Source of the DNA: Candidatus Andersenbacteria bacterium RIFCSPHIGHO2_02_FULL_45_11
GTDB taxonomy: Bacteria; Patescibacteriota; Andersenbacteria; UBA10190
Direction: 5' to 3'
DNA: 34,223 nt
Assembly: GCA_001817055.1 (NCBI GenBank)
Contig: MHHP01000015.1
Location: 12,020 to 46,242 of the forward strand
Part shown: piece after piece, positions 4,635-22,682 of the stretch
Position numbering within the stretch: the first letter of the stretch is position 1
Layout of the letters: each line of letters starts with the position of its first letter
Program-made: the position numbers and the translations under genes
Notes under the pieces: generated by a model
What the model saw: the letters and a program-made list of their open reading frames with translations, nothing else
The model's database searches: none
Told to the model about the DNA's origin: nothing

Positions 4635-6365
4635 ATGGTTGATCGCATCAGCGAAACTATCCTTCAAACATTAGTTGCATCGGGCGAACTTGCGCTTGCT
4701 GATAGTACTGCAGTCCGCGAGCAAATCGATACAGGGAAGGGCGCAATTTATTCATTGCTTGTTACGGGAAGTAAGGTAACGGAGGAGCAATATACTAAAG
4801 CATATGCTGCCGCGCTTGGCATGCCATATATTGATGTGCGCGATAAGCAGATTGAATCCAAGGTTCTCGATATTATTCCTGAATCAACTGCACGCGAACA
4901 TATGATTATTGCCTATGAGCAGACGGATGAAGTGGTGAAGCTTGCCATGGCAAACCCCAACGATCGGCAGATTGTGGAGTTTATTCACAAGAAGGTGGAT
5001 AAGCCGGTAGAGGTTGCGCTTGCAAGTGTTACCAGTATCCGCGAAACACTGGCGAAATATGAAGGAACTCTGGAGGCAGATTTGCAACAAGTTATAGATG
5101 AAGCGAAGAAGGCGAATGAGGAAGGAAAAGATTTGTCGAAGGCTGCAGAGGATTTGCCGATCATTAAGATCGCCGACTCTATTTTGAGGCATGCAATTTT
5201 AAAGGGCTCGTCTGATATTCACATTGAACCTACGGAAGAAAAAGTGGTGGTGCGGTACCGGATCGACGGAATTTTGCACGATATGATGGTGTTGCCGAAG
5301 ACCGTGCTTGCGGGCGTTGTAGCGCGTATAAAAATATTGAGTAATTTAAAGATTGACGAACACAGGTTGCCACAAGATGGCCGATTTAAATTAGAGAGCG
5401 ATGACTATAATGTCGCATTTCGTGTTTCTACGTTACCCGTGTTTGATGGAGAAAAGATTGTCATGCGTTTGTTGGACGAATCGGGTAAGGGGGTGAGCTT
5501 AGATAATGTGGGCATGGACGAGAAAAGCTTGAAGATGTTCCGTGACAATATTGCAAAGCCAAATGGGATGATACTCGTTACGGGGCCTACCGGATCTGGT
5601 AAAACAACCACGCTATATTCTGCAATGCGGGAGTTAAATACTTCGGAAGTAAATATTAGTACAATTGAAGACCCTATTGAATATCGCATGCAGCGAGTGA
5701 ATCAAACGCAAGTGCAGCCGAAAATTGGACTTACATTTTCTAATGGATTGCGGGCGCTGGTGCGGCAAGATCCGGATATTATTATGGTAGGTGAAATCCG
5801 TGACGAAGAAACTGCGTCGCTTGCCGTGAACGCAGCACTTACCGGGCACTTGGTACTGTCGACGTTGCATACAAATAGCGCCGCAGGCGCGGTGCCGCGG
5901 CTTATGGATATGAAGGTGGAGCCGTTCTTAATTGCGTCTACGTTGAACCTGGTGATGGCACAGCGCTTGGTACGTAAGCTTTGTGAATCGTGTCGTACTC
6001 AAGTACCGATTGACCAGGCAATGATGGACAGTATTGCGGATATTGTGAAGCTTGATCGGATGCTTGAAGTGCTCAAGCAGCAGGAGGTTATTGCAAAAGA
6101 TGCAGATTGGAAAGGCGTGCAAATGTTTGCTGCGCCCGGGTGTATAAAGTGTCATAATGGGTACAAAGGAAGAATGGGAATTTATGAAATGTTTGAGATG
6201 ACTCCTAGCATGCAACGGCTGTTATCTGCTACTATTACCACAGACGCGCTTGAAACTGCTGCAAAGAAAGAGCAGGGGATGGTAACGATGCTTGAGGATG
6301 GAGTGGTAAAAGTTGTGCGTGGGCTTACGAACATAGAAGAAGTTCTTCGAGTAGCAAAAGAATAA
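4635..6365 (+). CDS. pilB: Type IV pilus assembly ATPase PilB (GspE family)
   Basis: Walker A 'GPTGSGKTTTLYSAM', Asp box 'STIEDPIEYRM', 'RALVRQDPDIIMVGEIRDEETA', His box 'TGHLVLSTLHTNSA', tetracysteine 'CESC...CIKC'. Confidence 0.96.
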   Translation: MVDRISETILQTLVASGELALADSTAVREQIDTGKGAIYSLLVTGSKVTEEQYTKAYAAALGMPYIDVRDKQIESKVLDIIPESTAREHMIIAYEQTDEVVKLAMANPNDRQIVEFIHKKVDKPVEVALASVTSIRETLAKYEGTLEADLQQVIDEAKKANEEGKDLSKAAEDLPIIKIADSILRHAILKGSSDIHIEPTEEKVVVRYRIDGILHDMMVLPKTVLAGVVARIKILSNLKIDEHRLPQDGRFKLESDDYNVAFRVSTLPVFDGEKIVMRLLDESGKGVSLDNVGMDEKSLKMFRDNIAKPNGMILVTGPTGSGKTTTLYSAMRELNTSEVNISTIEDPIEYRMQRVNQTQVQPKIGLTFSNGLRALVRQDPDIIMVGEIRDEETASLAVNAALTGHLVLSTLHTNSAAGAVPRLMDMKVEPFLIASTLNLVMAQRLVRKLCESCRTQVPIDQAMMDSIADIVKLDRMLEVLKQQEVIAKDADWKGVQMFAAPGCIKCHNGYKGRMGIYEMFEMTPSMQRLLSATITTDALETAAKKEQGMVTMLEDGVVKVVRGLTNIEEVLRVAKE

Positions 6366-6366
6366 T

Positions 6367-7581
6367 ATGCCAACATATACATTTACAGGAAGGAACGAAC
6401 AGACAGGCGCACTTGTTACGGGTACGCGTGAAGTGGCATCGCATGCCGTGTTGGGGCAAGACTTGTTAGGCGAAGGCGTGTTGCTTACATCGTTTGAAGC
6501 GAAAAAGGAGCGTAATCATGCGTCGGTTATGAGTTTTTTTGTATCGCGAGTACCCGTACTGGAACGGGTATTGTTTGCGCGATACTTTGCATTAATGTTG
6601 CGTGCGGGTCTTGATTTAAAAAGTTCTCTTGCAACACTTCAGAAACAAACAAAAAATGGTGCACTGTCTCACGCCATAACACAAGTGTACCAAGGAGTGG
6701 AGCGAGGGCAATCGCTTGCAGATAGTATGCGTCCGTATCCGTACGCCTTCCCTGATATGTTTGTAGGGTTTATTGGCGTAGGAGAAACAACAGGAAAGCT
6801 GCAAGAAACATTAGAAGTGTTGGCGGCTCAATTACAAAAGGAATTCGAATTGAAGCGCGCAGTTCGAGGTGGAATGTTGTATCCGATTGTTATTTTAGCT
6901 GCACTATTTGCAGTGGGGGTTGCTATGATGGTATTTGTTGTGCCTAAGCTGGTTGAGATTTTTGAAGGATTTGATGTTGAGTTGCCCCTCATGACACGCG
7001 TGTTAATCGGTACAAGTAAATTTTTATCGGAATATTGGTATGTGGTGCTTGTGCTTGTGCTCATTTGCGCAAGCGTTGCGTGGTGGCTGATGCGAATCCC
7101 CAAAGTAAAAAAAGCGGTGATGGGTGCATTACTATTGTTCCCTATTGTGGGCCCGATTATAAAAGATGTAAACGTTGCGCGATTTGCCCGGAACTTAAGT
7201 TCGCTCTTATCGAGCGGCGTTGCATTTGCCGAAGCACTTTCTATTTTGGGGAACAACACGCCACACCCTATATATGCGCAGGTGTTTCATGAAGCTGAGG
7301 GGTATGTAAAGCAAGGTAAATCCTTAAGTGAATTTTTTGGGAAACAAGAAAAATTGTTTCCGCCCCTTGTAGTGAATATTATGGGAGTTGGTGAGCAAAC
7401 CGGAGAACTGTCTGCGGTGCTTCAGGAAGTTGCTTCCTTTTACGAGGGAGAAGTTGATCAAACAATGAAAAACCTTACGTCTATTATGGAGCCTGTGCTT
7501 ATGATTGCCATCGGGCTTGCGGTAGGTGCGCTTGCAATCTCTGTGATCTCACCTATTTACGGACTTGTAAATGTTATCTAA
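6367..7581 (+). CDS. pilC: Type IV pilus inner-membrane platform protein PilC (GspF family)
   Basis: 'FARYFALMLRAGLDLKSSLATL', duplicated T2SSF domain, 'VGEQTGELSAVLQEVASFYEGEVDQTMKNLTSIMEPVLMIAIG'. Confidence 0.95.
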   Translation: MPTYTFTGRNEQTGALVTGTREVASHAVLGQDLLGEGVLLTSFEAKKERNHASVMSFFVSRVPVLERVLFARYFALMLRAGLDLKSSLATLQKQTKNGALSHAITQVYQGVERGQSLADSMRPYPYAFPDMFVGFIGVGETTGKLQETLEVLAAQLQKEFELKRAVRGGMLYPIVILAALFAVGVAMMVFVVPKLVEIFEGFDVELPLMTRVLIGTSKFLSEYWYVVLVLVLICASVAWWLMRIPKVKKAVMGALLLFPIVGPIIKDVNVARFARNLSSLLSSGVAFAEALSILGNNTPHPIYAQVFHEAEGYVKQGKSLSEFFGKQEKLFPPLVVNIMGVGEQTGELSAVLQEVASFYEGEVDQTMKNLTSIMEPVLMIAIGLAVGALAISVISPIYGLVNVI

Positions 7582-8890
7582 AGGCTTCGGTATTCTCGAA
7601 GTAGTAATTACAACATTTGTTATTGGTGTTGTGGCGGTTGGGGTATTTTCGCTGATTACGCTTACGCTCAAATCTTCTCACGATGGTCAGCGGCGAATTA
7701 TTGCAACGGCACTTGCAAATGAAACAATGGAAAAGATTCGTAATTTGCCGTACGACAATGTGGGTACAGTTGGCGGGGTGCCTTCCGGGCCCATTGTGCA
7801 AAGTCAACAGGTTACTAGAAATGGCAGTGAGTATACTATTGCAACGGATATTCGGTACATTGATGATCCGTACGACGGTACGGCTGAGGGCAATCCCCCT
7901 GATGCGCTGAATACGGACTATAAACAAGCCCGCGTAGAAGTTTCGTGGCAATCAAATGTGTCTGCACGCCCCGTGTTATTAATCACACAGATTACACCCA
8001 AGGGTATTGAGGGGGGAAGTTCTTTAGGTACGCTTGTATTTCAAGCGTTGAATGCTGCAGGTGCCGGGGTAGCAGGGGCAACAGTTCATCTCTCAAACTC
8101 CGAAGTGAGTCCACTTGTCGACCTTACTACCGCAACAAACGACGAAGGAAGGGTTGTGATTCCTGGATTGCTCGCAGCAAGTGGCACGTACCAACTCACA
8201 GTTTCGAAAGCAGGGCATACTACAGAGCAAACATATACTCCTGCTGGTGTTTTTACCCCAGATACGGACCATTCCCATCTAACTGCAATTGCAGGGCAAG
8301 TGATAAATAAAACATTTTCACTTGATGCAGTAGCGTCTCTTGTAGTGCAAACGGTAGATGCGCTTACTAGTGCGCCTATCCCAGATGTTGCATATCGTAT
8401 AACAGGAACAAAAAAGATTGGTACCGATGAAAATGCGCAGCCGGTGTATGTGCTGGATGCAAATGATACAACGGATAGCAGTGGATCTCATGAGTATCAA
8501 AGTATGGTATGGGATTCGTATGCAATTTCGATAGACGGTACTGTTACTGGGTATGATATTGAAGATACAAGCCTGCCGTTGCCGCTCGTGATAAATCCGG
8601 GCGCAGAGGAAACGGTACTAATGAAGCTCGCTGCGCATACGCCGTTATCGTTGCATGTCACCGTTCTACCTTCCTCTCAAGAGCCAATCGAAAACGCATC
8701 GGTACATGTTACAAAAAGTGGATATGACGAAACGAAGCAAACAACTGTTAATGGGCAAGCGTTTTTTGCTGATATGCCTGAAAATTCTGAGTATACGATA
8801 ACGGTTGATGCGGCGGGCTATCAGCAATCAGTCCAACAAGTAACAGTCGATGGAACTGTGCGTACTCAAGTAACATTAGTAGCACTATGA
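7571..8890 (+). CDS. Prepilin-like protein (GspI/PilV-type N-term) with repeated Ig/carboxypeptidase-regulatory-like beta domains
   Basis: 'SKG/FGILEVVITTFVIGVVAVGVFSL' with Glu at +5; repeats such as 'LVFQALNAAGAGVAGATVHLSNS...', 'LHVTVLPSSQEPIENASVHVTKSGYDETKQTTVNGQAFFADMPENSEYTITVDAAGY'. Confidence 0.8.
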   Translation: MLSKGFGILEVVITTFVIGVVAVGVFSLITLTLKSSHDGQRRIIATALANETMEKIRNLPYDNVGTVGGVPSGPIVQSQQVTRNGSEYTIATDIRYIDDPYDGTAEGNPPDALNTDYKQARVEVSWQSNVSARPVLLITQITPKGIEGGSSLGTLVFQALNAAGAGVAGATVHLSNSEVSPLVDLTTATNDEGRVVIPGLLAASGTYQLTVSKAGHTTEQTYTPAGVFTPDTDHSHLTAIAGQVINKTFSLDAVASLVVQTVDALTSAPIPDVAYRITGTKKIGTDENAQPVYVLDANDTTDSSGSHEYQSMVWDSYAISIDGTVTGYDIEDTSLPLPLVINPGAEETVLMKLAAHTPLSLHVTVLPSSQEPIENASVHVTKSGYDETKQTTVNGQAFFADMPENSEYTITVDAAGYQQSVQQVTVDGTVRTQVTLVAL

Positions 8891-9369
8891 GAGGTTTTAC
8901 GCTGATTGAAATTCTTGTTGCAATTAGTATCTCCAGTATTATTCTTGTCGCACTTGTGCGGCTTATGGGTATATCTATTCCAGTGTATCGTTCATTATTT
9001 TTACAAACGCTTGCGGATGATACGGCTCGAGTGCAGTTGAAGAGAATTGCGCATCAGCTTCGAGAAGCTCGCCCTTCTGATACAGGAGCGTATCCTATAG
9101 TGGAAGCAACGGCGCAAAAACTCATATTTTATGCAGATATTGACGGCGACATAGCCACGGAACGAGTGCGCTATGAACTCGTGGGTACGGATTTAGTGCG
9201 AGGAGTTATTGAGCCATCGGGCAATCCCATTGTGTATGACGTAGTGGGCGAAGTTTCTTCAATTGTTGCACGCTCTATATACAATGGCTCAACTCCACTT
9301 TTTACGTACTACGGAAGCAATTACCCCACAGATCCGAATCCGCTTATATTGCCCACCCCCACCCCATGA
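8887..9369 (+). CDS. Prepilin-like minor pilin (GspJ/PilW-type)
   Basis: 'MRG/FTLIEILVAISISSIILVALV'; ATGA overlap with previous gene. Confidence 0.85.
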   Translation: MRGFTLIEILVAISISSIILVALVRLMGISIPVYRSLFLQTLADDTARVQLKRIAHQLREARPSDTGAYPIVEATAQKLIFYADIDGDIATERVRYELVGTDLVRGVIEPSGNPIVYDVVGEVSSIVARSIYNGSTPLFTYYGSNYPTDPNPLILPTPTP

Positions 9370-10415
9370 AAAAATCACTGACCATACGAGGGCTCATAGG
9401 GTATATTATCGTGAGTGTTATATGTGGAGTACTACCATTTCCGGTGAGTGCTGCACGTACGGTAGTGTTTGCTACTTTGAATGGGTTGCTTTCCGTGGTT
9501 GTTGCTCCATCAGCTTTTATCACTGCCCAGTTAGCAGTTACTACGTCTGGTTCGGGTTCAAATAACGATTGGGAGTCTACATATTGGCAAGTTGGCAACG
9601 AAGTATCTGGATGTGTGGACCATTCTGACCATACGAATCCTGGAACGTTTTCAGAAAGTTTTACCATTACTGCGCCGAGTAGTCCGGGTACTTATAGTGT
9701 TTCATTTGTTGCGTATAAGGATGATGGTTGCAGTCAAGATGGAAGCCTTACGTTTACCATGACCAACAGTGTTACCGTGATTGGCCCCTCATCTTCGCCT
9801 ACTCCTCCTATTCCCACACCTAGTCCGTCGCCGTCTCCTACACCTACCCCTACACCGTTTCCTACACCTACCCCTACACCGTTTCCTACACCTACACCTA
9901 CACCTATAGATTATGAAATTTCAACGTGTGACGAGACATGGGACGTAACGTTTGAGCAGACTTCGGGAAGTGCTGTAAGGAACGGGCAAGTAGGGTTTAA
10001 GGTTACGTTGCCAGGCCTAAGTTATGGACGAATGAAGAATAACCCGAGTATTTATCATGCGTATCAATATCCGGATGATACCTTTGTTACTGACCCAGAA
10101 ATGGTTATAACGAGCTTTGATAGCCCCGACCCTGGGTACGAGGGGGTTATATATATGAAAAGTGCAGACGTTGTCTTGGTAAAGTTTGATTTGTGGTGTA
10201 TGGATACGGGCGATTCTTTTACAGTATTCAAGACGTTTTACTGGCCTCTTCCTACATCCGTAGCACCAACTCCAACTCCAACGCCCACTGGCAGTGTTTC
10301 TGATATTCGGTATGTTGATTTTGAGATGGTTTTGGATGTTGATTCCGCAAGTTCTTCTGATGGGCTCATTTTAAACTCACAGGTGCAATTACGAAATTTA
10401 AAAGAAAATTTATAG
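9366..10415 (+). CDS. Secreted protein with Pro/Thr-rich tandem-repeat linker
   Basis: Hydrophobic N-term signal-like segment, Ig-like region 'GTFSESFTITAPSSPGTYSVSFVAYKDDGCSQDGS', linker 'PTPTPTPFPTPTPTPFPTPTPTP'; ATGA overlap. Confidence 0.7.
   Translation: MKKSLTIRGLIGYIIVSVICGVLPFPVSAARTVVFATLNGLLSVVVAPSAFITAQLAVTTSGSGSNNDWESTYWQVGNEVSGCVDHSDHTNPGTFSESFTITAPSSPGTYSVSFVAYKDDGCSQDGSLTFTMTNSVTVIGPSSSPTPPIPTPSPSPSPTPTPTPFPTPTPTPFPTPTPTPIDYEISTCDETWDVTFEQTSGSAVRNGQVGFKVTLPGLSYGRMKNNPSIYHAYQYPDDTFVTDPEMVITSFDSPDPGYEGVIYMKSADVVLVKFDLWCMDTGDSFTVFKTFYWPLPTSVAPTPTPTPTGSVSDIRYVDFEMVLDVDSASSSDGLILNSQVQLRNLKENL
9837..9906 (+). repeat. In-frame tandem repeat, 24-bp unit (2 exact copies plus a degenerate one) coding PTPTPTPF
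   Basis: cctacacctacccctacaccgttt at 9837-9860 and 9861-9884, then cctacacctacacctacaccta. Confidence 0.9.
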
Positions 10416-10450
10416 TAATGGGTGTATAGTATTTCGTATATTCATGATTC

Positions 10451-10591
10451 ATACCAACTTAACCTAATCTATGCGATGTCATGCTGGACCTGCCTACCGA
10501 GCAGGCAGGCTTGATCCGGCATCCAGACGTAGTCTACGTGGATTCCGGGTCAAGCTCAGACAGACTAGAACGGATAGGGTTAAGTTGGTAT
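10451..10591. mobile_element. MITE-like non-coding element with terminal inverted repeats
   Basis: Left end ATACCAACTTAACC (10451-10464), right end GGTTAAGTTGGTAT (10578-10591); internal hairpin CCTGCCTaccgagcAGGCAGG. Confidence 0.7.
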
Positions 10592-10670
10592 TACCTACCC
10601 CATGCGTAACCCCCAACAACTCAATTTCTACAAGCTAATGCAGCTATAAGCTAAAGAAGCTTAGTGGGTG

Positions 10671-10676
10671 TATAAT
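10671..10676 (+). promoter_or_regulatory. -10 box TATAAT, 6 nt before ATG of next pilin gene
   Basis: gTATAATtaccctATG; no convincing -35 found. Confidence 0.45.
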
Positions 10677-10682
10677 TACCCT

Positions 10683-11615
10683 ATGCAGAATGGGTTTACC
10701 TTGATAGAGGTTTTAATAGCGATGTTTTTATTTGCAGTTGCAACGATTGCGATTGTGGGTGTTTCGGTATTGGTTTCCAAAACAACATTTAAGGTTGAAA
10801 AACAGGTTGTCGCACAAGCAATTGCGAACGACGCTATAGAAAAGCTCCATGGATTGCCGTACACTAAAATTGGTATTATCCCGAGCGGCGCAACTGGAGG
10901 ATTGAAGCCAGACGGTTCACTTGAATATATACAATCAATTCAGCAAGACCAGCAAGAATATGTTCTTATAACAAATATATTCCCCGTTGATGATTCGGCA
11001 AATGGTTCTGTCTCAGGTATTTTAAGTCTTGCAAATGCGGACTATGTAACAGTTCGAGTTCAGGTAAGTCCTACGGTAGGTGGGGTTGCATCTGGATCTG
11101 CGAGTAGTAGCGTTGTTTCAGCGGCAACCACAGTTGCAAATTGGCCCCCCGGAGCGTGTAGTCCCGGTGAAGTAACCTGTTCGGTTGAGTTTCCTGCGTT
11201 ACCCTCTACGTTTGTATTTTCCAGCAGTATTCAAATACGGACGTTTGTAAATAGCCTTGGGTTGTTTTCCAAAATCCCAGATGGAACAGGAACTAGTGAT
11301 GGCAGATTTCGCGACAATATCGCAACAAGACGCAAGCTTTGTAATCTCAAGGGCTATGCCATTGCGGCATCTACAAATGGCAGCGCTTCTCCGATTGATA
11401 ACTATCAGTGGAACGGTAGCGCTTTTCAAAGTACTGGCAATACTACATATATCGCAACGCTTACGTGTAGTAGCCCCGTATCAACCGCTTCATGTTCTTA
11501 TATGGCAGCTTGTCCCTCAAGTGGAAATTGTGCCGATGCAACAGTCCCGCGTGGATATACACCAAGCGGTGCTTTGTATCTGGGCCAAGGTGACCCTGCT
11601 TGGGTATGTTCGTAA
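10683..11615 (+). CDS. Prepilin-like minor pilin (GspI/PilV-type)
   Basis: 'MQNG/FTLIEVLIAMFLFAVATIAIVGVSVLV' with Glu +5; 'AIANDAIEKLHGLPYTKIG' resembles 'ALANETMEKIRNLPYDNVG' in the 7571 gene. Confidence 0.85.
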   Translation: MQNGFTLIEVLIAMFLFAVATIAIVGVSVLVSKTTFKVEKQVVAQAIANDAIEKLHGLPYTKIGIIPSGATGGLKPDGSLEYIQSIQQDQQEYVLITNIFPVDDSANGSVSGILSLANADYVTVRVQVSPTVGGVASGSASSSVVSAATTVANWPPGACSPGEVTCSVEFPALPSTFVFSSSIQIRTFVNSLGLFSKIPDGTGTSDGRFRDNIATRRKLCNLKGYAIAASTNGSASPIDNYQWNGSAFQSTGNTTYIATLTCSSPVSTASCSYMAACPSSGNCADATVPRGYTPSGALYLGQGDPAWVCS

Positions 11616-11618: not shown

Positions 11619-13790
11619 ATGAATGAATTATCTAGGAGTAACGGGGGAATACTACTGATGGTGATGGTGATTGTTTCTATGTTGACAGTTATGTTTATAG
11701 GCTCTGTGGGAATTGTGTCCCGCGAATTGCATATTACGTCTGACGCAACACAGAAAGAGCGTATATATCAGGTTGCGGAATCAGGAGTGCAGCGTATCTT
11801 ATTTTTGGTAGAAAATGCTGATTATACATTAGATCAGCTAGTTGCGTTGTCTGGAATTCCTACATCAATTGCTGACCCGGTAGCAAATACAGCTGTTGGC
11901 ACGTATACGTTGTCTGTGGTAAAGCAGGGTAGTGGTCAGGCGGTTGATGTTATTTCGCTTGCGCGCAGTCCTGATGATCGCTTTTGTTCTAAAGTGAGTG
12001 CCACTATCAAAAGTCCGTCCGGAAGTGCTGTGGGGCCATATTTTGCATATAAATGGAACCGTTCTGTATGCCCAGTGGATACCGTAGCACCAAATTCACC
12101 TACTGCCCTACCTGCGGGAGGGGTTTATAACGAGACTAAAAATGTTTCGTTATCGGCAGAAGCAAATGCGACTATCTACTACACAATAGATAGCACTGAT
12201 CCAACTACGAGTTCAACGGTGTATACAAGTCCTATCTCTATTTCTGCAACGGTTACGCTGCGCGCCATTGCGGTAGATGCTGCGGGGAATGTAAGCACTA
12301 TAATGGTTGAGGTATATACAATAGATACAACGCCTCCGGCAGCGCCCGTAGCATCTCCTGCTGGTGGAAGCTATACATCTGCACAATCCATTTCGTTATC
12401 AGCAGAATCTGGCGCGGCAATTCGATATACGCTGGATGGTTCTACGCCTACCGTTGCCTCAGCCCTCTATTCTTCTGTAATTGCAATTAGCTCTTCAAAA
12501 ACTCTGAAGGCTATTGCACTAGATGCCGCAGGAAATGTAAGTCCGATTATGTCGGAAGTGTATACGTTCGCGTTTGCAAATGGTGCACCTGCAATTGACT
12601 TGATTGGACAGTATGTTAATCGAACAGATAATCCTTTACAGGCTTTATACGCAAAAGGATATGCAAACGATGCAAATGGGAGCGGTCCAATTCCTGTTAA
12701 TCGGTATGGTTTGTATCATCCCTGGAATGGAATTGCGCTTGATGGTCTGGGGCATAGATTGTTTATTGGTGATTCGTATAATAGTCGAGTTCTTGTGTAT
12801 AATCTAAATTTGGATAATACGTTGCCAGATCCTATTCCTGATAACGTTATTGGGAAAACTAACTATACTAACGCAGGAGGATTGCCACCTTTGCAGTCAA
12901 GAGTTGGTCGTCCTATTGCTCTTGCGTATGACAGTACCAATAAGCGTCTTTTTGTTGCATCTGACGGCACTCATAGAATACTTGTTTTTGATGTCGTTTC
13001 TATTACTGATGGTGAGCCTGCCATTAATATCATTGGGCAATCAACATATGCTGCTACAACCCCGTCCTCGTGTGCTCAGAATGGTCTGAACAACCCTAAT
13101 GGACTTGAGTATGATAGTATCAATAATAGACTGTTTGTTGCCGATACGAACAATAGACGAATGATGATATTTGATGTAAGGCCAGTTAGCTCCAGTGATC
13201 CACGCCTTTTATCTGGAGACAAGCCCAATGCTATCAATGTTCTTGGTAAATCTAGCTTCACTCCTTGCGGCGCTGGTGTGGATCTTGGCTCTCAGGCAAA
13301 TCTTGAGCAACCAATAGCGGTGTTGTATGACGGTACTACTGGACGCTTATTGATTTCAGATATGCAAGATGATCGTGTAATGGTATTTGATGGTAGGCCC
13401 CTAAGTTCTTCTGATCTTCGTCTTGCAGTCGGGGATGGGGCACAAGCTATCAATGTTCTTGGGCGAGGCGATTGGGGTACGAATGCGGATGGGGCGGTTA
13501 GCATAAATCGTTTGGATAATCCAGGTTCTCTTGCACTTGATCTTCCCAGGCAACGTCTTTTTGTTGCAGATAAGAGTAATAATCGTGTAGTTGTTTTTGA
13601 TATTACCGATATTTCAAACGGAGAGAATGCAATCGGCGTTCTTGGTCAACTAAGTTTTGACTCTTCGGGTGGCGGACTTACGCAGTCAACATTTGCCGCG
13701 CCATCTGGACTCTTATACGATAACACTAATAGTCGTCTGTTTGTTTCTGATTGGGGTAATAATCGTGTCATGATATTTTCTGTACCCTAA
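11619..13790 (+). CDS. PilX/GspK-like minor pilin with two chitobiase C-terminal-like beta domains and C-terminal NHL-type repeats (predicted beta-propeller)
   Basis: N-term 'SNGGILLMVMVIVSMLTVMFIGSVG...QVAESGVQRILFLVE'; two repeats of 'PAGGxYxxxxxxSLSAEsxAtIyYTlDgsxPT...LrAIAxDAAGNVS'; repeats 'GLEYDSINNRLFVADTNNRRMMIFDV', 'RLFVSDWGNNRVMIFSVP'. Confidence 0.85.
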   Translation: MNELSRSNGGILLMVMVIVSMLTVMFIGSVGIVSRELHITSDATQKERIYQVAESGVQRILFLVENADYTLDQLVALSGIPTSIADPVANTAVGTYTLSVVKQGSGQAVDVISLARSPDDRFCSKVSATIKSPSGSAVGPYFAYKWNRSVCPVDTVAPNSPTALPAGGVYNETKNVSLSAEANATIYYTIDSTDPTTSSTVYTSPISISATVTLRAIAVDAAGNVSTIMVEVYTIDTTPPAAPVASPAGGSYTSAQSISLSAESGAAIRYTLDGSTPTVASALYSSVIAISSSKTLKAIALDAAGNVSPIMSEVYTFAFANGAPAIDLIGQYVNRTDNPLQALYAKGYANDANGSGPIPVNRYGLYHPWNGIALDGLGHRLFIGDSYNSRVLVYNLNLDNTLPDPIPDNVIGKTNYTNAGGLPPLQSRVGRPIALAYDSTNKRLFVASDGTHRILVFDVVSITDGEPAINIIGQSTYAATTPSSCAQNGLNNPNGLEYDSINNRLFVADTNNRRMMIFDVRPVSSSDPRLLSGDKPNAINVLGKSSFTPCGAGVDLGSQANLEQPIAVLYDGTTGRLLISDMQDDRVMVFDGRPLSSSDLRLAVGDGAQAINVLGRGDWGTNADGAVSINRLDNPGSLALDLPRQRLFVADKSNNRVVVFDITDISNGENAIGVLGQLSFDSSGGGLTQSTFAAPSGLLYDNTNSRLFVSDWGNNRVMIFSVP

Positions 13791-13796
13791 TACTCT

Positions 13797-15998
13797 ATGA
13801 TCTCTCATCATAAATCTGGATATACGCTTGTTGAACTCATTGTTGTGATGGCGATTAGCGCCGTGATTATGGGTGCCTTGCTATACTTTTTCTCCGGAAG
13901 TATCACTTCATACAGATCTCAAGTTGGGCATATATTTGCAACTGCGGATGCGCGTAATCAAGTACAGCGTATAACGGACGTTATTCGCAACACTCAAGAT
14001 AATACGAGTAATGATTGGCTGCAGGAAGCAGGGGATAATGCAATTGCCGTATATACCGACATAGAAGGGGACGGTAATCTAGAAAAAGTCGCGTATCGCA
14101 AATCTGGAACTGAGCTGACGCGAGAAGTTACTATTGCTGGGGCTACCACCTCGGGCATCATTATGCGAAACGTTGCAAATACTGACGCAGTGTTTACGTA
14201 CTATGATGCAAGCGGAAACAGTATCTCTGTACCTGAAACTAGAACATCGCTCACGGTAAAAAATATTGGCGTTAGTATTACAGTTAGCTCTACTGATCCG
14301 CAGGATGCTAATAAGCAGACTGTTTCAACTCGCATTACTCCGCGCAGTAAATTACAGGGTGATGTATCTCAAATTGTAGGGCCTGTTGCAGCTCGTGAAG
14401 TGAGTATTCAGCTCCCACGTGGGAATCCGCCGGCAAGTAACGCGAGCGCAAGTGTTGTTATTAAAGATCCGAGTTCCGGAGATACACTGTCTACAAAAAC
14501 TCTCACGTTTTCTGAATTAAATGATGGGCGCTTGAGTGTGTATGCGAATAAGTTGTATGCAATTTTGAATTACAAAACAGATACGGGGTTAGGGAATCCT
14601 GCTGGGTGGTATGTGTGGATTGCAAAAAGTGTGCCCGTGCTAAGTAGCTTGTTTCAAGTCCCTCTTGATTCGTTATATACAAATCAATGTTTGGGCGTGA
14701 GTTGGGCAACAGTACAAGCGTCAACTACCAGTTCTTGTGTGCCGCTTGATACTGCGCTCTATCCAATTACCTCTTCTGAAACATTCCAGCCTATTCTTGC
14801 GTATACGGAAAATGGCAATCGGGATTATGTACGGGACATAACATTTGCCCCCGCTCCCCCATTTGTAAATGGGTCCCCCGCCATAGATTTAATTGGGCAG
14901 TATGTAAGTCAGTCCGATAATCCACTAGTTCCTCTGTATACCAAAAATACAAATAATGATGGACAGGTAGGCGTCAATCGATTTGGATTTAATTCAGTAT
15001 CTCAGGGAATTAGCATTGATACTACCCGACATAGACTCTTTATATCTGATCCAAATAATAATCGTGTATTAGTATATAATCTAAACTCTAATGATACATT
15101 ATCCGATAGAGTTCCTGATTATGTGCTTGGGCAAGCTAACTTCACATCTAACCTAGCAGCTACTACTCAAGCCGGGATGAAATCACCTCGTGGTCTCGCA
15201 TACGACAGTGTCAATAGGAAGTTGTATGTGGGGGATTTTACGAGTGGCCGAGTCCTTATCTACGATGTTTCTACCATTACGAACGGAGAGAATGCAATTA
15301 ACGTTCTTGGGAAGACGGGCTTTGGAGGTATTGGTCCTTCTCCTGCCACCCAAGCAATACTCTATAGTCCAGTTGGTCTTGCATACGATAGTATTCATCG
15401 AAGGTTGTACGTTGCTCAGCAAACGTCTAATCGTGTAAGCGTCTTTGATGTTTCTACTATTACGAACGGAGAGAATGCAATTAATGTGCTTGGTCAATCT
15501 AATTTTTCGATAACATCTCCTTCTGCAACACAGTCCGGTTTGAAGACACCTCAGGGTCTTACGTACGATGGTGTACATAACAGGCTTTTTGTTGCAGATA
15601 GTGGCAACGGGCGTGCTCTTATCTACGATGTTTCTACTATTACGAACGGAGAGAATGCAATTAATGTGCTTGGAAAGACTACGTTTTCAGGCAGCGGTGG
15701 GGTGGCAAGCCAAAGAAATATGGGATCTATAACTGGTTTTGCATACGATAGCTTGCACAATCGTCTGTTTGTTTCAGATAGAAATAACAATCGTATTCTA
15801 GTATTTGATCTTGCTGTAATAACGAATGGTGAAAATGCGATGGGTGTAATAGGAAAAACAACCTACGATAGCAGTAACGCTTCTACTACTCAAGCAACAC
15901 TAAAACAACCAGGCGGTCTCGCATACGATAGCGTCAATAGCCGGTTGTATGTAGGGGATATCGCGAACAATCGCATTATGATATTTTCTACGCCGTAG
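13797..15998 (+). CDS. GspJ/PilW-like minor pilin with C-terminal NHL-type repeats (predicted beta-propeller)
   Basis: 'SG/YTLVELIVVMAISAVIMGALLYFFSG' with Glu +5; repeats 'GLAYDSVNRKLYVGDFTSGRVLIYDVSTITNGENAINVLGK'; C-term 'RLYVGDIANNRIMIFSTP' resembles the previous protein. Confidence 0.88.
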   Translation: MISHHKSGYTLVELIVVMAISAVIMGALLYFFSGSITSYRSQVGHIFATADARNQVQRITDVIRNTQDNTSNDWLQEAGDNAIAVYTDIEGDGNLEKVAYRKSGTELTREVTIAGATTSGIIMRNVANTDAVFTYYDASGNSISVPETRTSLTVKNIGVSITVSSTDPQDANKQTVSTRITPRSKLQGDVSQIVGPVAAREVSIQLPRGNPPASNASASVVIKDPSSGDTLSTKTLTFSELNDGRLSVYANKLYAILNYKTDTGLGNPAGWYVWIAKSVPVLSSLFQVPLDSLYTNQCLGVSWATVQASTTSSCVPLDTALYPITSSETFQPILAYTENGNRDYVRDITFAPAPPFVNGSPAIDLIGQYVSQSDNPLVPLYTKNTNNDGQVGVNRFGFNSVSQGISIDTTRHRLFISDPNNNRVLVYNLNSNDTLSDRVPDYVLGQANFTSNLAATTQAGMKSPRGLAYDSVNRKLYVGDFTSGRVLIYDVSTITNGENAINVLGKTGFGGIGPSPATQAILYSPVGLAYDSIHRRLYVAQQTSNRVSVFDVSTITNGENAINVLGQSNFSITSPSATQSGLKTPQGLTYDGVHNRLFVADSGNGRALIYDVSTITNGENAINVLGKTTFSGSGGVASQRNMGSITGFAYDSLHNRLFVSDRNNNRILVFDLAVITNGENAMGVIGKTTYDSSNASTTQATLKQPGGLAYDSVNSRLYVGDIANNRIMIFSTP
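15264..15673 (+). repeat. Near-identical intragenic NHL repeat segments
   Basis: gatgtttctactattacgaacggagagaatgcaattaatgtgcttgg is exact at 15447-15493 and 15627-15673 (180 bp apart); near-exact at 15264-15310. Confidence 0.9.
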
Positions 15999-16003: not shown

Positions 16004-17323
16004 ATGAATACAAAATTTCTTGGAGGATTAATTATAGTATTTCTTCTCGCGCTTGTTGCGCGTGTGTCGTCGCTTGGTGCAATTAACCAAGTTGTATTTG
16101 ATGAAGTGCATTTTGGAAAGTTTATTTCTTCGTATTGTTGTACGCATGAGCGGTTTTTTGATATTCATCCGCCGATTGGAAAGCTTTTGATCGCCGGCGG
16201 TGCGTATGTTGTAGGGTACGATGGACAGTTCTCGTTCGATCATATTGGGCAACCATACGAGAATGTTCCTATTGCGGAAATTCGTATGGTTCCGGCGATA
16301 TTTGGTGCGCTGTTGCCGGTTATTATTATGATATTACTTGTGCAAGCGGGCGTTTCGCTCGAACTATCGTTTATGGGTGGCATTGCCCTAGCGTTTGAAA
16401 ATGCTCTTATAGTTGAATCTCGCTATATCCTTACGGATAGTATTTTATTGGCTGCAACGTTTGGTTGTGTGAGTGCTGCAATAGCGGCAGTACAAACAAA
16501 GCACAGCTTACGTAGCTGGTATTGGGTTATTCTTGCTGGAATTCTTGCTGGTATTGCGGTTGGAACAAAGTTTACTGGAGCAATTGGGGGGGCTCTTGCA
16601 GGAGTAGTATTACTCGTACAAGCAATTCGAGACGGATATATGAAATCGGGGATTTGGTTTGGGAAGATATCATTACTCGTGGGTACTGTTGGTGCGGTTT
16701 ACATTGCTGGGTGGGCACTGCACTTTTCACTCTTAACGCTTCCAGGATCGGGGGATGTGTGGGGAGTGCCTACGGGGCATTTCTGGCAAGATGTTGTACA
16801 GACGCATCAGAAGATGCTTTCGGCTAACTACAACTTAACAGCCGATCATCCATACGGAAGCAAGTGGTATACGTGGCCATTTATGGTACGGTCTGTATTT
16901 TATTGGCAAGGTGGAGGTAACCAGTTCCTCTACTTGCTCGGTAATCCGATAGTGTGGTGGGGGAGTGCGGCTTTCTCTGCGGTTGGGCTTCTCTATGCAT
17001 TCACACTGATTGCTCGGGGAATATTTACGAAGACGAACGCCGTTGCCTGGGTGTTTTTGCTCGGATACATCCTATCGTTTATTCCGCTTATGCGCGTGCC
17101 TCGCGTGTTATTTTTATACCATTACTTAACTCCACTGTTATTTTCACTCTTGTTTGGAGTGTGGTGGTTTGATAAGGCAGTGGGCCTGAAGCGACGAATA
17201 GTTGCTGCGGCTTGCCTTGTGTTAATTGCAGCTGGGTTTTTGTTTATGAGTTCGCTCACATACGGATTTCCGGTGTCGCAGGAGTTGCAGCATGTGTTAT
17301 TTTATATATCATCATGGCGATGA
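16004..17323 (+). CDS. Dolichyl-phosphate-mannose-protein mannosyltransferase-like (PMT/GT39)
   Basis: 'VVFDEVHFGKFISSYCCTHERFFDIHPPIGKLLIAGGAYV', 'EIRMVPAIFGALLPVIIM', multiple TM segments. Confidence 0.88.
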   Translation: MNTKFLGGLIIVFLLALVARVSSLGAINQVVFDEVHFGKFISSYCCTHERFFDIHPPIGKLLIAGGAYVVGYDGQFSFDHIGQPYENVPIAEIRMVPAIFGALLPVIIMILLVQAGVSLELSFMGGIALAFENALIVESRYILTDSILLAATFGCVSAAIAAVQTKHSLRSWYWVILAGILAGIAVGTKFTGAIGGALAGVVLLVQAIRDGYMKSGIWFGKISLLVGTVGAVYIAGWALHFSLLTLPGSGDVWGVPTGHFWQDVVQTHQKMLSANYNLTADHPYGSKWYTWPFMVRSVFYWQGGGNQFLYLLGNPIVWWGSAAFSAVGLLYAFTLIARGIFTKTNAVAWVFLLGYILSFIPLMRVPRVLFLYHYLTPLLFSLLFGVWWFDKAVGLKRRIVAAACLVLIAAGFLFMSSLTYGFPVSQELQHVLFYISSWR

Positions 17324-18711
17324 TTACTCTACGTGGATTCCGGGTCGGAGCCCGGAATGACAACGAAAACCGCGGGAGTATTTTAATTATGACCGTCATT
17401 ATGGTCATGATGATTGGGATTATGTTCACATCAATTTCTGGTGTTATAAATCTCCAGTATCGCCAAGGAGGATTAGCTGCACAAGATGAAACAGCATTTC
17501 AAATTGCAGAAGCAGGGCTTAATTTTGCTCGTTGGAGGCTTGCGCATAACCCTACAGATTTTAGCGCAGCTGAGCATGAACTTGCCGATCAGTTGCAGGG
17601 GGCGCTTGGTACATATTCATTAACGTTTACTGCCCCTCAAAATGGCAGCACGGTTGTCACTATTACTTCTGTTGGGCACACTGCAAACTCTCCTACACGA
17701 GAAGTTACTCTTACTGCAACGTACGGAATCCCAAGTCTTGCGAAGTACGTCTTTGTTACGAATGAGGACGTTTGGTATGACGAAGAAATTCATGGGCAAG
17801 TACATTCAAACGGCGGAATCCGGATGGATGGTGTGTCTGATGGTGTTATGATGAGCGCAAAAAGTACGTACGTATGCCAAACATCGCATGGGTGTGCAAA
17901 TGAAACGAAGCCCGGTATATGGGGAGATGGGAGTGATAGTGCCCTGTGGCAGTTCCCAGTACCGAGCATTGACTATAGTGGGCTTACGGTAGACCTGTTG
18001 GATATGCAGGCCGCGGCAGTAGCGGCAGGAACCTATTACGGGCCGTCGGGAGCATTGGGGTATCATGTTGTATTTAACACAGATAATACGTATTCCGTAT
18101 TTATAGTGACCGCCACTACTACTGCTATGTCTTCATATGCTCCGGATACGGGGTGGCAAACGGTATCGCACGATATTGCTACGGAAGCATTTCTTACGTC
18201 CGCAGCCGTACCTGATAACGGGGTTATATATGTAGAGGATACATTATGGGTAAACGGCAACATACGCAGCCATGTTACCGTAGCTGCCGGACGGTTTCCG
18301 GATACGCCGAGTACCAATGCTGATATTATTTTGAACGGGAGCATTACATATGACGGTGTGTATGATGGGACGCGTACTTTTGGAGCGATTGCGCAAAAAA
18401 ATATTCTGATTCCGTATTCTGCTGCTCCTGATAATCTTGAGTTGGATGGTGCATACCTTGCACAGCACGGCCGATTTGGAAGGCGATATTATTCTTCGGG
18501 GACATACACGCTGAGAACCTCTATGAATTTGCGTGGGATGATCGCAAGTAACTGGACTCCGGTTACTACGTGGGTTAATGAAAGTGGCACGGTGATAAGC
18601 GGGTATCAGACTGGTGCGAGTACATACGACTCCAATTTATTATATGGGCCGCCTCCATTTTTCCCAACAAGCGGTGAATACCAATTTCTATCGTGGGGCG
18701 AAACACAGTAA
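17320..18711 (+). CDS. PilX-like pilus assembly protein
   Basis: 'RGSILIMTVIMVMMIGIMFTSISG...QIAEAGLNFARWRLAHNP'. Listed ORF begins at 17212 inside the PMT gene; ATG at 17314 or 17320 (ATGA overlap) is more plausible. Confidence 0.75.
   Translation: MITLRGFRVGARNDNENRGSILIMTVIMVMMIGIMFTSISGVINLQYRQGGLAAQDETAFQIAEAGLNFARWRLAHNPTDFSAAEHELADQLQGALGTYSLTFTAPQNGSTVVTITSVGHTANSPTREVTLTATYGIPSLAKYVFVTNEDVWYDEEIHGQVHSNGGIRMDGVSDGVMMSAKSTYVCQTSHGCANETKPGIWGDGSDSALWQFPVPSIDYSGLTVDLLDMQAAAVAAGTYYGPSGALGYHVVFNTDNTYSVFIVTATTTAMSSYAPDTGWQTVSHDIATEAFLTSAAVPDNGVIYVEDTLWVNGNIRSHVTVAAGRFPDTPSTNADIILNGSITYDGVYDGTRTFGAIAQKNILIPYSAAPDNLELDGAYLAQHGRFGRRYYSSGTYTLRTSMNLRGMIASNWTPVTTWVNESGTVISGYQTGASTYDSNLLYGPPPFFPTSGEYQFLSWGETQ
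17328..17361. repeat. Fragment of dispersed repeat inside a coding region
   Basis: tctacgtggattccgggtc is identical to 10533-10551; hairpin TTCCGGGtcggagCCCGGAA. Confidence 0.75.
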
Positions 18712-18720: not shown

Positions 18721-19752
18721 ATGATAGGCATTGATATATCTGATCAGACTATAAAAATAGTCCAACTCTCTGCCGGAAGGGGTAGGCGCCTGGGGTGCAG
18801 ATACTTACACCTCTTGCCTCCCAAGGTTGTTGTGAATGGAATCGTTGTAGATGCTGCAGCTATGGAGCGCGAAATTGCAAAGGCGCTTGCCTCATGTGGC
18901 GCGATGTACCGGAAAAAAGATCCTGTAGTTGCATCCATTCCGGAGTCCCAATCTTTTTTACGGGTTATTGAGATTCCGAAGATGAATGAAGATGAGATTG
19001 GGGAGGCTGTGCAGTGGGAAATTGCTCAACATATTCCGTTTGGCTTGGAAAATGTATATATAGACTGGCAGCTTCTGGCTGCAAGTGATCATCCTATACA
19101 GCCCAATCATCAAGAGATCCAGGTGGGAGCTGCGCAAAAAAAAGTTGTTGATGCGCTGTACGGTGTTCTGAAGAAGCTGCGCCTTGATGTTGCCGCATTT
19201 GAGCTTGAAAGCCAGGCTATCGTGAGATCCCTTGTTTCTCAAGAGTGGCGTTTGAAGGAAGGGTTATTGATTGTTGATATTGGAAGCAGTGCGACAAACG
19301 TTATCGTATACGAGCATGGTGCAAGTAGATTTACGGCGAGCCTTGCCTGTGGCGTTGCAAGTTTAATATCTTCATTATCGCCTGAAGACACTCATACGGT
19401 GCTTGAGAATCTGCATGCATTGCCGGCTGATATAGTTGAGAAGATGCGAGTAGTTATAATTCCTGGCATTCAGCAACTTGCCACGGATATTAGAGGAATT
19501 GTTGATTTTACTAATACTAGTAATGCCAAGCACGAGGTTACGGAGATTATCCTTACAGGGGGTGGTTCTAATCTTCCGGGACTTGATGATGCGTTTCAAA
19601 AACATTTTGATGATGTGCAAATTCAGCGGGGTAATCCTTGGGTTAACATCTTGACCGGATCAGGCGCTACTCACCCTCCGATGGATTTACAAGAATCGGT
19701 TCGATATACAACCGCATTGGGGTTAGCCCTTCGTGATAGTGTTCCCTTATGA
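18721..19752 (+). CDS. pilM: Type IV pilus assembly protein PilM, copy 1
   Basis: 'MIGIDISDQTIKIVQLS', 'VVASIPESQSFLRVIEIP', 'EAVQWEIAQHIPF', 'FELESQAIVRSLV', 'LLIVDIGSSATNVIVY', 'ILTGGGSNLPGL'. Confidence 0.93.
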   Translation: MIGIDISDQTIKIVQLSAGRGRRLGCRYLHLLPPKVVVNGIVVDAAAMEREIAKALASCGAMYRKKDPVVASIPESQSFLRVIEIPKMNEDEIGEAVQWEIAQHIPFGLENVYIDWQLLAASDHPIQPNHQEIQVGAAQKKVVDALYGVLKKLRLDVAAFELESQAIVRSLVSQEWRLKEGLLIVDIGSSATNVIVYEHGASRFTASLACGVASLISSLSPEDTHTVLENLHALPADIVEKMRVVIIPGIQQLATDIRGIVDFTNTSNAKHEVTEIILTGGGSNLPGLDDAFQKHFDDVQIQRGNPWVNILTGSGATHPPMDLQESVRYTTALGLALRDSVPL

Positions 19753-20294
19753 AGACAGAGATTAATGTACTTTCGCCAGAAGCAAAAAACGATCGTCAAC
19801 ATACGATAGTTGCTCATCGAATTCGCGCAATTATGGATGCGATTCTTGTTTGCGCAGTTATTGCAGTATGTTCCTATGCTGCAGCATACGGAGCGCTTAG
19901 AACAATGAGAAATTCAGTTCAGCAACATGGATTAACCCAAGAGAGTGAGAGGGCTGAAATACATCAAAAAATACAAGATATTAATGCGATTATTGCTATT
20001 GTCGATGATCGCATTACTCAAGAATATCTTTGGACGCCCCTGATACCAGATATAGTGCGCCTTGCATCGCCGGGTATCGCAATAGTAAAAATTGAATTAA
20101 CCGAAAATCCCCAAACCCTTGTTCTTACAGGAAGAGCTTCTCAGGGGTCTGTGGTAGTACAGTATCAACGATCGCTTGAAAAACTGCCGTGGGTAGACCA
20201 TGTTGTAGCACCCTTACAAAATTTTGCGCTTGTACCCGATGCGGCTGCAGTCTTTACAATATTTCCGAAAGCGAAAGGGGACCCTGCCGTATGA
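19749..20294 (+). CDS. PilN-like protein, copy 1
   Basis: 'MKTEINVLSPEAKN', single N-terminal TM, position after pilM; ATGA overlap. Confidence 0.75.
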   Translation: MKTEINVLSPEAKNDRQHTIVAHRIRAIMDAILVCAVIAVCSYAAAYGALRTMRNSVQQHGLTQESERAEIHQKIQDINAIIAIVDDRITQEYLWTPLIPDIVRLASPGIAIVKIELTENPQTLVLTGRASQGSVVVQYQRSLEKLPWVDHVVAPLQNFALVPDAAAVFTIFPKAKGDPAV

Positions 20295-20863
20295 AATCGC
20301 TAATATATTATAGTATTGTCGGTAGCAGTACGGTGCTTTGTATTGTGGCATCATTTTTCCTGCATATGCAGGTACGTGAGATACGCGATACCTTGGCTCT
20401 TTCTATTCGCGAATTAGAGATAGCTCCAACACAAGAGTCACAAGCGCGTATATTGAAAAAAGAGTTAGAGAGTATTGAGCAAAAACTGCAGCAAGTTTCT
20501 TTGATTACTATCTCACAGGATGAGATTGTGGGTGTGATAGATAAGATATTGCTGGCCGGCAAAGAATCTGGTGTTTCTGTGCAAGTGCCTCAGGTACATG
20601 CGGGTACTGCTAAGCCAGGCGTTTTGCAAGATGTTCGTATACGAATGAATGCGATTGGATCACCTTCGGCTCTTGTTGCGTTTATGTATCGTTTAGAACA
20701 TGTACCATATATAATTAGGGTTGCTTCTTGGAACTTGGATACAACACGTCAGAGTGCACCTGGGTCATTTGCGGCCAATGTGCCCGCAGATACTTCCAAA
20801 TCAAAGCCTCCTTCAGGAAGCCTACTAGCCGTAGAAGCGATTATCTCTATTTTGCAAAAATGA
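20291..20863 (+). CDS. PilO-like protein, copy 1
   Basis: N-terminal TM plus coiled coil, position after pilN; start corrected from 20189 to the ATGA-overlapping ATG. Confidence 0.7.
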   Translation: MKSLIYYSIVGSSTVLCIVASFFLHMQVREIRDTLALSIRELEIAPTQESQARILKKELESIEQKLQQVSLITISQDEIVGVIDKILLAGKESGVSVQVPQVHAGTAKPGVLQDVRIRMNAIGSPSALVAFMYRLEHVPYIIRVASWNLDTTRQSAPGSFAANVPADTSKSKPPSGSLLAVEAIISILQK

Positions 20864-21132
20864 AACACATATCAAATATATTTATCTACCATATACGGTC
20901 TATTGCGATAGGCATTATTTTGATTGGCGCCTTGGTGTCGTTTGGTATTATATATTATGCCTTTTCATTTCCTGCTGTGCCCGTAGCGTCTGTTGGGATT
21001 GCTGGAGAAAATGTATCCGCAGCAGGCGATAGATTTGACCGGGTATTTCTATGGTTTGCAGAAAAGGAAAAAGCGACACAATCTGTACCGGTTATACCAA
21101 ATTCAGCCTTCTTTATACCCAGCGGCTTATGA
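20860..21132 (+). CDS. Small single-TM protein of unknown function (after PilO copy 1)
   Basis: 90 aa, one TM, then 'GENVSAAGDRFDRVFLWFAEKEK'; ATGA overlaps at both ends. Confidence 0.7.
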   Translation: MKHISNIFIYHIRSIAIGIILIGALVSFGIIYYAFSFPAVPVASVGIAGENVSAAGDRFDRVFLWFAEKEKATQSVPVIPNSAFFIPSGL

Positions 21133-22682
21133 TTGGTATTGATATCTCTGATCGTTCGGTAAAAATTGCGGAGGTTTCTTCTGCCTCTCGTCCGCAATTT
21201 AAAACTGTATGCTGGTCGCCATTGCCTGCTGGCCTTTTGCGCAGGGGTATTGTTCAAGACGTTCCTACTTTAATAGAACACTTGAAAACCACATGTGGTA
21301 AATGTTCGCCGTTTCCATTATCTCAAGGCCCTATTGTTGCATCTATTCCGGAAACTCGTTCCTTTATTCGCGTGCTCGATGTACCAATATTATCTCAACA
21401 AGAAACTGATGAAGCAGTACAGTGGGCTATTCGCAAAGACCTCCCGTTTGATCTTAAAAGTGTATATGTGGGATGGCAGCCCATTGCATCTTCGTCTAGT
21501 GTAAATATGCGCCAGGTACTTGTGGGGGCTGCTCAGCGAGCAGTCATAGACCCGCTTCTAGCTGCATTGGACGGCGCTGGATTTAGTGTTGTGGCATTAG
21601 AGTTAGAATCACAAGCTATGGTTCGCAGCCTTCTGCCACTTGATTCCGCTTCTATTGAAGGGGTTGTAATTTGTGATTTGGGTGCAAGCACGACTAAGAT
21701 TATATATTTTGATCGGGGTGCGATGCGACTTACGGCAGATGTGCCGAGCGGAGGGGATCGGTTAACGGCAGAGCTGGTTCGGGCATTTTCTATTACTCCT
21801 GAGATTGCCGCAGAGAAAAAGTCTATAATCGGTGTTATTGCCCGTAATGGGGAGGATGGGGCAATTGCTACTACGCTTCGAGGGGCAGTATTGGCATTGG
21901 CGCAAGAAGTGCATAGTACTATTGAATCTGCGTTACCTCAATTACCAGGAGGTGGTAGTGTGCGAGGAATACTTTTATCGGGTGGCGGTGCAAATTTACC
22001 AGGGATCAGAGATATTTTTGGAGAAGTGTTTCCGGGTATTCCGGTGCAGATCGGGAATCCACTCACGAACCTAACGTCACCTGCAATGTCGATCAGTCCT
22101 CAAGATGCTAGTCATTTTGTGACTGCGCTTGGTCTTGCGCTTCGTACGGATGGGTTGAATCTTCTTCCTCCACCTCGACGCCATGCACTTGCGCTCAAGT
22201 CGATGGTAGAGAATACGCATCACTTCCTTTCTAGTATTACGATGGGGCTCGCATTGCTGACGCTTGTGGGGACTCTCAGCCTTGGAATTTTACAAAGTTT
22301 GATTTCTGCAACCCCTCCTGAAAAGTCGGCGCAATTAGATCAGGTGATGTCGCAATATGCTGCTCTTCGTGAATCAGTGAGTTCTCAGAATGTTTTGCTT
22401 TCTGCGATCAGCGGGGTGAGCGATAAACGGCTCTTGTGGAGCGATAAAATACATGAGCTGTTAGGAGTTATTCCGGGAGGTGTGCACATCCAAGCTATTC
22501 GAGCAACGGGGGGCGATGCGCCGTCAATTTCATTCTCTGGGCAAGCTGCAACGCGGAATGCGCTGATTATTTTGGAGCAGCGCCTCAAGAGTATTTCCTG
22601 GGCTACTTCTGTTAAAGCCCCCAACTCCAATTTGATTGATCGTACGAACGCTCCTTATGAGTTTATTATGTTGTTGAAATAG
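21129..22682 (+). CDS. PilM-PilN fusion protein (copy 2)
   Basis: N-terminal PilM 'MIGIDISDRSVKIAEVS...VASIPETRSFIRVLDVP...VVICDLGASTTKIIYF...LLSGGGANLPGI', then TM + coiled coil + C-term 'ISFSGQAATRNALIILEQRLKSISWATSVKAPNSN' typical of PilN. Confidence 0.85.
   Translation: MIGIDISDRSVKIAEVSSASRPQFKTVCWSPLPAGLLRRGIVQDVPTLIEHLKTTCGKCSPFPLSQGPIVASIPETRSFIRVLDVPILSQQETDEAVQWAIRKDLPFDLKSVYVGWQPIASSSSVNMRQVLVGAAQRAVIDPLLAALDGAGFSVVALELESQAMVRSLLPLDSASIEGVVICDLGASTTKIIYFDRGAMRLTADVPSGGDRLTAELVRAFSITPEIAAEKKSIIGVIARNGEDGAIATTLRGAVLALAQEVHSTIESALPQLPGGGSVRGILLSGGGANLPGIRDIFGEVFPGIPVQIGNPLTNLTSPAMSISPQDASHFVTALGLALRTDGLNLLPPPRRHALALKSMVENTHHFLSSITMGLALLTLVGTLSLGILQSLISATPPEKSAQLDQVMSQYAALRESVSSQNVLLSAISGVSDKRLLWSDKIHELLGVIPGGVHIQAIRATGGDAPSISFSGQAATRNALIILEQRLKSISWATSVKAPNSNLIDRTNAPYEFIMLLK

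Follow-up and report, generated by a model that had tools for sequence, protein, structure and literature searches.

Two related NHL propeller modules on adjacent modular minor pilins in a variable slot of a second type IV pilus operon of Candidatus Andersenbacteria

The tip adhesin PilC/PilY1 of type IVa pili (T4aP) is a beta-propeller protein that sits on a complex of minor pilins. In Nanosynbacter lyticus TM7x, the second type IV pilus (T4P-2) works without a retraction ATPase, and its minor pilin PilX2 carries a C-terminal RCC1 propeller; deletion of pilX2 lowered the proportion of host-bound cells from 10.6% to 4.6%, and normal host binding requires PilX2, not PilW2 or PilV2 (PMC12206443). 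The modular pilins PilB (with a vWA domain) and PilC (with a lectin domain) of S. sanguinis occur together with an I-like PilA (PMC8179133; review PMC10191384), and a tip complex capped by a subunit without Glu5 has been described as well, the I, J and K classes making one tip complex both in type II secretion and in T4aP (PMC10191384). Here we analyzed a stretch of 34,223 nt (hereafter the window; contig MHHP01000015.1, positions 12,020 to 46,242) from Candidatus Andersenbacteria bacterium RIFCSPHIGHO2_02_FULL_45_11 (GCA_001817055.1), a fragmented genome of 0.88 Mb in 40 contigs that is 96% complete. We focused on two adjacent genes of a pilus operon, located at 11619-13790 and 13797-15998, whose products have pilin-type heads and both end in an NHL module (Table 1). 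Its small genome, together with the knowledge gained from cultivated Patescibacteria, leads us to infer that the organism is host-dependent. We consider it fairly probable that the two products form a paired propeller adhesin, built on modular minor pilins that belong to a second type IV pilus (T4P) and encoded by a lineage-variable tip cassette.

Both open reading frames (ORFs) are intact, lie exactly where an initial annotation of the window had placed them, and are separated by 6 nt, so that they are probably co-transcribed. Their C-terminal modules (12573-13787 and 14862-15995) are 42% identical over 405 columns (E 2e-106), and the local alignment score of 804 compares with 44 ± 7 and a maximum of 67 in 200 shuffles; no relation was found between the heads of the two products. 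The claim that one module is common to both C-termini is thereby confirmed, and the consensus strings that had been quoted for it are correct. Pfam NHL scores above its gathering threshold in both proteins (62 and 69 bits, cut-off 20), each module shows six blade motifs, and the solved NHL propellers of SOQ1 and NHLRC2 are matched by sequence with best E values of 1e-12 and 4e-14 (profile E 1e-17). For the 13797 product we computed an AlphaFold2 model from a 64-row alignment, which replaced a single-sequence run with a mean predicted local distance difference test (pLDDT) value of 33.5. In this model module 2 forms six closed blades, for which pLDDT is mostly 95-98, and the top Foldseek matches were the NHL domains of SOQ1 and NHLRC2, structures 7djj and 6g7w included. 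The propellers predicted at first sight are thus recovered: module 2 is, as modelled, a closed six-bladed NHL propeller, and module 1 is probably another one, given its homology to module 2. With non-pilus domains at their C-termini, NHL in both and CHB_HEX_C_1 in the 11619 product, the two proteins belong to the known kind of modular pilins (PMC8179133), and it is the gene context that points to their incorporation into a pilus.

As the genome is derived from a metagenome and contains several NHL genes, the fusions could in principle be an assembly artefact, and the 40 contigs as well as giant NHL genes that reach contig ends on two of them (C7 and C37) would be in line with this. We regard such an artefact as highly improbable, because neither frame is interrupted, the composition of the region is uniform (GC 0.42-0.47), and both flanks are syntenic with other genera. 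Moreover, the two modules differ from every other copy at about half of their residues, and merging of reads is therefore impossible. A composition check for foreign origin gave no clear signal; GC at third codon positions is 0.29-0.32 in the modules and 0.34-0.47 in their surroundings.

The 13797 product begins with the N-terminus of a canonical prepilin. The prepilin motif (SG/YTLVE) contains Glu5, N_methyl matches with an E value of 3e-7, and the AlphaFold2 model has an N-terminal helix of 57 residues (residues 11-67). The head resembles core PilW-like pilins from the same family, and its profile finds short PilW-like pilins in 75 of 380 genomes, so that the GspJ/PilW-like N-terminus initially assigned to this protein is well founded. 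Comparison with the counterpart in a genome of a sister genus (G005) revealed that the heads are alignable to residue ~351 (NGNRDYVRDI and NGQLDYVRDI, respectively). Past this point the C-termini are unrelated, with NHL in the 13797 product versus proline-linked domains in the counterpart, which marks the graft junction. The N-terminus of the 11619 product reads GG/ILLMV. It lacks Glu5 and has no match to Pfam N_methyl, and is therefore termed PilX/GspK-like, after the class lacking Glu5, and not a canonical pilin. The initial annotation had likewise proposed a PilX/GspK-like N-terminus, and the missing Glu5, the position between the PilV- and PilW-like proteins and the resemblance of the head to the core PilX proteins of sister genera (36% over 102 aa, E 1.5e-10) speak for it, although Pfam PilX_N is silent on this product; this family matches just two of seven relatives, and weakly. 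Between the short head and the NHL module, Pfam places a pair of CHB_HEX_C_1/Fn3-like domains (best stretch at residues 165-228, the boundary of the second being approximate), which are absent from the initial annotation.

Next, we compared the operon across the family, where the gene order is PilB, PilC, core PilV, core PilW, a slot, mannosyltransferase, core PilX, PilM, PilN and PilO. In the source genome, the slot between core PilW and the protein O-mannosyltransferase (PMT) is filled by an extra V-X-W trio consisting of a PilV/GspI-like protein and the two propeller-bearing proteins. Three congeners (G002, G003 and G004) have no genes in it; there, core PilW directly overlaps at its end with the PMT gene. 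V-X-W trios occupy the same slot in genomes of sister genera (G005, G007 and G009), with other, unrelated C-termini: LTD is grafted on V in G005, PPC on X in G007 and Cys-rich repeats on V in G009. G008 harbors a related set in a different order, and G001 a large PilW in the slot at a contig end. Between genomes, identity is 38-67% for core V, W, X and PMT and at most 36% for the cassette V and W heads, while the cassette X head is nearer to core X proteins than to the cassette X proteins of other genomes. In the cassette PilV/GspI-like protein of the window we observed no recognised grafted domain. The initial annotation had named absence of the pair from related pilus loci as a refutation, and for the propellers this absence was observed: the module was found in none of the 12 other genomes of the order (0/12), though the V-X-W slot recurs; judging from these sequences, the pair is therefore a lineage-specific graft and not a conserved two-propeller pilus.

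The window operon contains PilB and PilC, and PilT and PilD are absent from it. Four PF00437 proteins are encoded in the genome. Only one of them is PilT-like, and it belongs to a locus on contig C21 that comprises PilN/O, PilB, PilT, PilC, PilA and PilD and has a separate set of minor pilins; C11 encodes a third PilB-like PF00437 protein. The window thus holds a second assembly machinery without a retraction ATPase, as in T4P-2. On this machinery, the cassette PilV/GspI-like (10668-11615), PilX-like and PilW-like proteins would form an extra I-J-K-like trio which, by analogy with known systems, would start or cap the filament, with the PilX-like subunit lacking Glu5 as the cap. The two six-bladed NHL propellers could then be displayed as a paired binding head for the surface of a partner cell or another ligand. 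Joint assembly at the tip, display of both propellers at once and adhesion to a host cell are suggested here by analogy, for which the precedent of TM7x PilX2 is helpful (PMC12206443). The propellers might instead not be used as a pair, if one pilin of the trio were displayed at a time or if they formed alternative tips. The two pilin classes and their stalk lengths do differ, and host binding of TM7x depends on PilX2, not on PilW2/PilV2 (PMC12206443); however, with adjacent and probably co-transcribed genes, and given that type II secretion and T4aP unite the I, J and K classes in a single tip complex (PMC10191384), we judge separate use to be quite improbable.

Several observations weigh against a paired adhesin at the tip. 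The pairing of the propellers and their tip position are putative; the structural model covers a single chain, the 13797 product, whose pilin head was modelled poorly (pLDDT mostly 25-60 for residues 30-350), and only a single genome is known to carry the propeller pair. In addition, no small N_methyl major pilin was found in the window operon, nor elsewhere in the genome beyond those of C21. As the genome is 96% complete, the gene for a major pilin may have been missed; otherwise the system may rely on the PilA of C21 or form a short pseudopilus. Finally, NHL propellers are also found in enzymes and regulators, so that the fold alone is no proof of binding.

To place the pair, we considered further copies of the module. 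Four copies or partial copies occur in the same genome within giant secreted non-pilin proteins, two of them on C7 and one full and one shorter copy on C37. The genes on C7 and C37 run off the contig ends and their C-termini are missing. On the contig of the window (C15), about 8 kb upstream of it, a giant repeat/Fn3 protein is cut by the contig start, leaving its C-terminal part (L011:1-3753), and because the proteins on C7 and C37 lack their C-termini, these pieces may belong together. The 13797 module scores best against the copies in giant secreted proteins (48%), and the 11619 module against the 13797 module (45%). In the best free tree modules 1 and 2 stand apart, but a constraint joining both was not rejected (approximately unbiased test, p 0.37), and constraining all five modules of this genome as one group gave a better likelihood than the free tree, which leaves the tree undecided between a local duplication within the cassette and two separate acquisitions. 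The sharing of the module had initially been taken to imply domain transfer or duplication. Grafting as such is apparent from the head that is alignable to residue ~351 and the unrelated C-termini beyond, whereas an origin between the two pilins does not follow, given the four other genomic copies, the best score to those and the undecided tree.

Among the 380 genomes, which were sampled across the phylum, 15 contain the module (source genome included); no pilin-NHL pair was seen in this sample, and the examined module carriers are secreted proteins or incomplete ORFs. A scan of one genome per species in 84,980 species yielded 74 module loci, many of them in Patescibacteria; it was seeded with two peptide patterns and may therefore overlook distant NHL pilins. 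The fetched loci contain 99 module ORFs (some counted twice) whose 5' end is complete; of these, only the two in the window have pilin heads, and the median N-terminal stretch ahead of the module is 39 aa, which fits a signal peptide. In the literature we found nothing on NHL together with a pilin in Patescibacteria. The relatives of the module across Patescibacteria are secreted proteins, and the scanned ones continue after it with Fn3, SLH or other repeats, two of them with S-layer domains. These relatives would suit a different explanation, in which the cassette builds a spacer or a pseudopilus-like structure, with large C-terminal domains that make contacts with the cell envelope or a biofilm matrix rather than recognising a partner, the propellers being generic surface spacers like the giant secreted NHL proteins. 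That the giant NHL proteins of this genome carry two modules, or nearly so, and that no dedicated major pilin was found would also agree with it. We nevertheless consider it unlikely, since both modules are located C-terminally on pilin heads and directed outward from the filament, the trio corresponds to the I-J-K class of tip proteins, and the exchange of end modules from one genus to another suggests that the ligands vary. Returning to the paired tip adhesin, we would extend it with much more reserve, as a tentative possibility, to a fixed slot that Patescibacteria of this family would keep in a pilus operon lacking a retraction ATPase, and whose V-X-W tip cassette sets the partner cell by evolutionarily replaced binding modules, partly drawn from the own secreted propellers and represented here by a two-headed tip of one subfamily.

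Table 1. Features of the pilus operon and its cassette in the window (positions in nt of the window)
Feature	Position	Strand	Remarks
PilB extension ATPase (4635-6365) and PilC platform protein (6367-7581)	4635-7581	+	No PilT in operon
Core PilV-like pilin with CarboxypepD_reg domains	7571-8890	+	42-62% identity with full-length family orthologues
Core PilW-like pilin, N-terminal part	8887-9369	+	48-67% identical to orthologues
Cassette PilV/GspI-like minor pilin	10668-11615	+	Likely start ATG 10683; N_methyl E 3e-7; TIGR02523/TIGR01707 below cut-off
Cassette PilX/GspK-like modular minor pilin	11619-13790	+	723 aa; head, two Ig/CHB_HEX_C_1-like stalk domains, NHL propeller (predicted)
Two CHB_HEX_C_1/Fn3_assoc (Ig-like) stalk domains	12111-12572	+	Pfam CHB_HEX_C_1 E 1.1e-39, two stretches
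NHL module 1, C-terminus of PilX-like protein	12573-13787	+	Six blade motifs; Pfam NHL E 3e-17; NHL propellers of the PDB matched by sequence
Cassette PilW/GspJ-like modular minor pilin	13797-15998	+	733 aa; N_methyl E 3e-7; TIGR02532; long N-terminal helix
PilW-like head plus collar (to residue 355)	13797-14861	+	Alignable with L031:9990-12569 to residue ~351
NHL module 2, six-bladed propeller (modelled)	14862-15995	+	Pfam NHL; AlphaFold2 pLDDT about 95-98
Protein O-mannosyltransferase (PMT family)	16004-17323	+	Conserved gene just 3' of slot; Pfam PMT E 2e-45
Core PilX-like pilin	17311-18711	+	Start uncertain, probably near 17320; 52-66% identical to orthologues
PilM, PilN-like, PilO-like, second PilM-domain protein (21051-22682), T2SSM_b/PilO-like protein	18721-23218	+	

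Some further observations concern the neighborhood of the cassette. The core PilW-like pilin is split: its N-terminal part ends early, and the following ORF (9366-10415) has its own signal-peptide-like start and P/T-rich linkers and terminates in QVQLRNLKENL, the conserved C-terminus of the undivided PilW in relatives. The same split is present in the congener G004 (L037:10226-10696 and 10614-11411). Between core PilW and the V-X-W cassette, at about 10448-10605, we observed a repeat similar to repetitive extragenic palindromes or miniature inverted-repeat transposable elements, with the terminal inverted repeats ATACCAACTTAACC...GGTTAAGTTGGTAT and 14 further partial matches in the genome; it is possibly a trace of insertion. 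The operon holds two PilM-domain proteins, the first at 18721-19752, and the T2SSM_b/PilO-like protein comes after the second. Upstream of pilB lie a small cupredoxin-like protein (4115-4609, + strand) and a divergently transcribed FAD-linked oxidase (2330-4063, - strand), a layout shared by several relatives. Elsewhere in the phylum, PilW-class pilins (L180-L188) have large C-termini with Ig-like, bacterial-repeat-like or Ca-binding-like repeats, or follow another fused open frame.

It is largely open how ultrasmall, host-dependent bacteria select their hosts, and one propeller-bearing pilin, in Saccharibacteria, has been tied to host binding. The window may add a second case, from a different patescibacterial lineage and built in another way: it has two propellers and a slot that can be recognised and whose content is replaceable. 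This slot yields concrete candidate recognition modules, which can be found in other genomes between core PilW and the mannosyltransferase. What is new is the simultaneous use of a single propeller subfamily by two pilin classes, within a slot that has genus-variable end modules.

The secreted patescibacterial NHL proteins (e.g. L073, L074, L009 and L010) belong to the same six-blade subfamily, are 45-50% identical and often contain two tandem modules; unlike the window pair, they consist of a signal peptide followed by the module and have no pilin head. PilC/PilY1 shares with our locus the combination of a beta-propeller with minor pilins, but PilY1 is a separate non-pilin protein with its own propeller family, whereas here the propellers are fused to pilins. 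Membership in PilC/PilY1 was rejected, as neither protein has a PilY1-type Pfam match. With PilA, PilB and PilC of S. sanguinis the cassette has in common two modular pilins and one I-like non-modular pilin, and C-terminal grafts that are not pilus-specific; there the grafts are unrelated domains, whereas both grafts here belong to a single propeller subfamily. The main text of the survey of modular pilins makes no mention of NHL, and an NHL pilin may already be among its 264 architectures (PMC8179133). As in TM7x, we observed a patescibacterial PilX-class minor pilin with a C-terminal beta-propeller and no predicted canonical PilD signal, in a second T4P without a retraction ATPase. Unlike T4P-2 of TM7x, no dedicated major pilin was found here, and the propeller is a six-bladed NHL and not a seven-bladed RCC1 propeller, the likeness being one of architecture. 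In TM7x the propeller is present on PilX only, whereas here the PilW-class neighbor bears a related propeller too.

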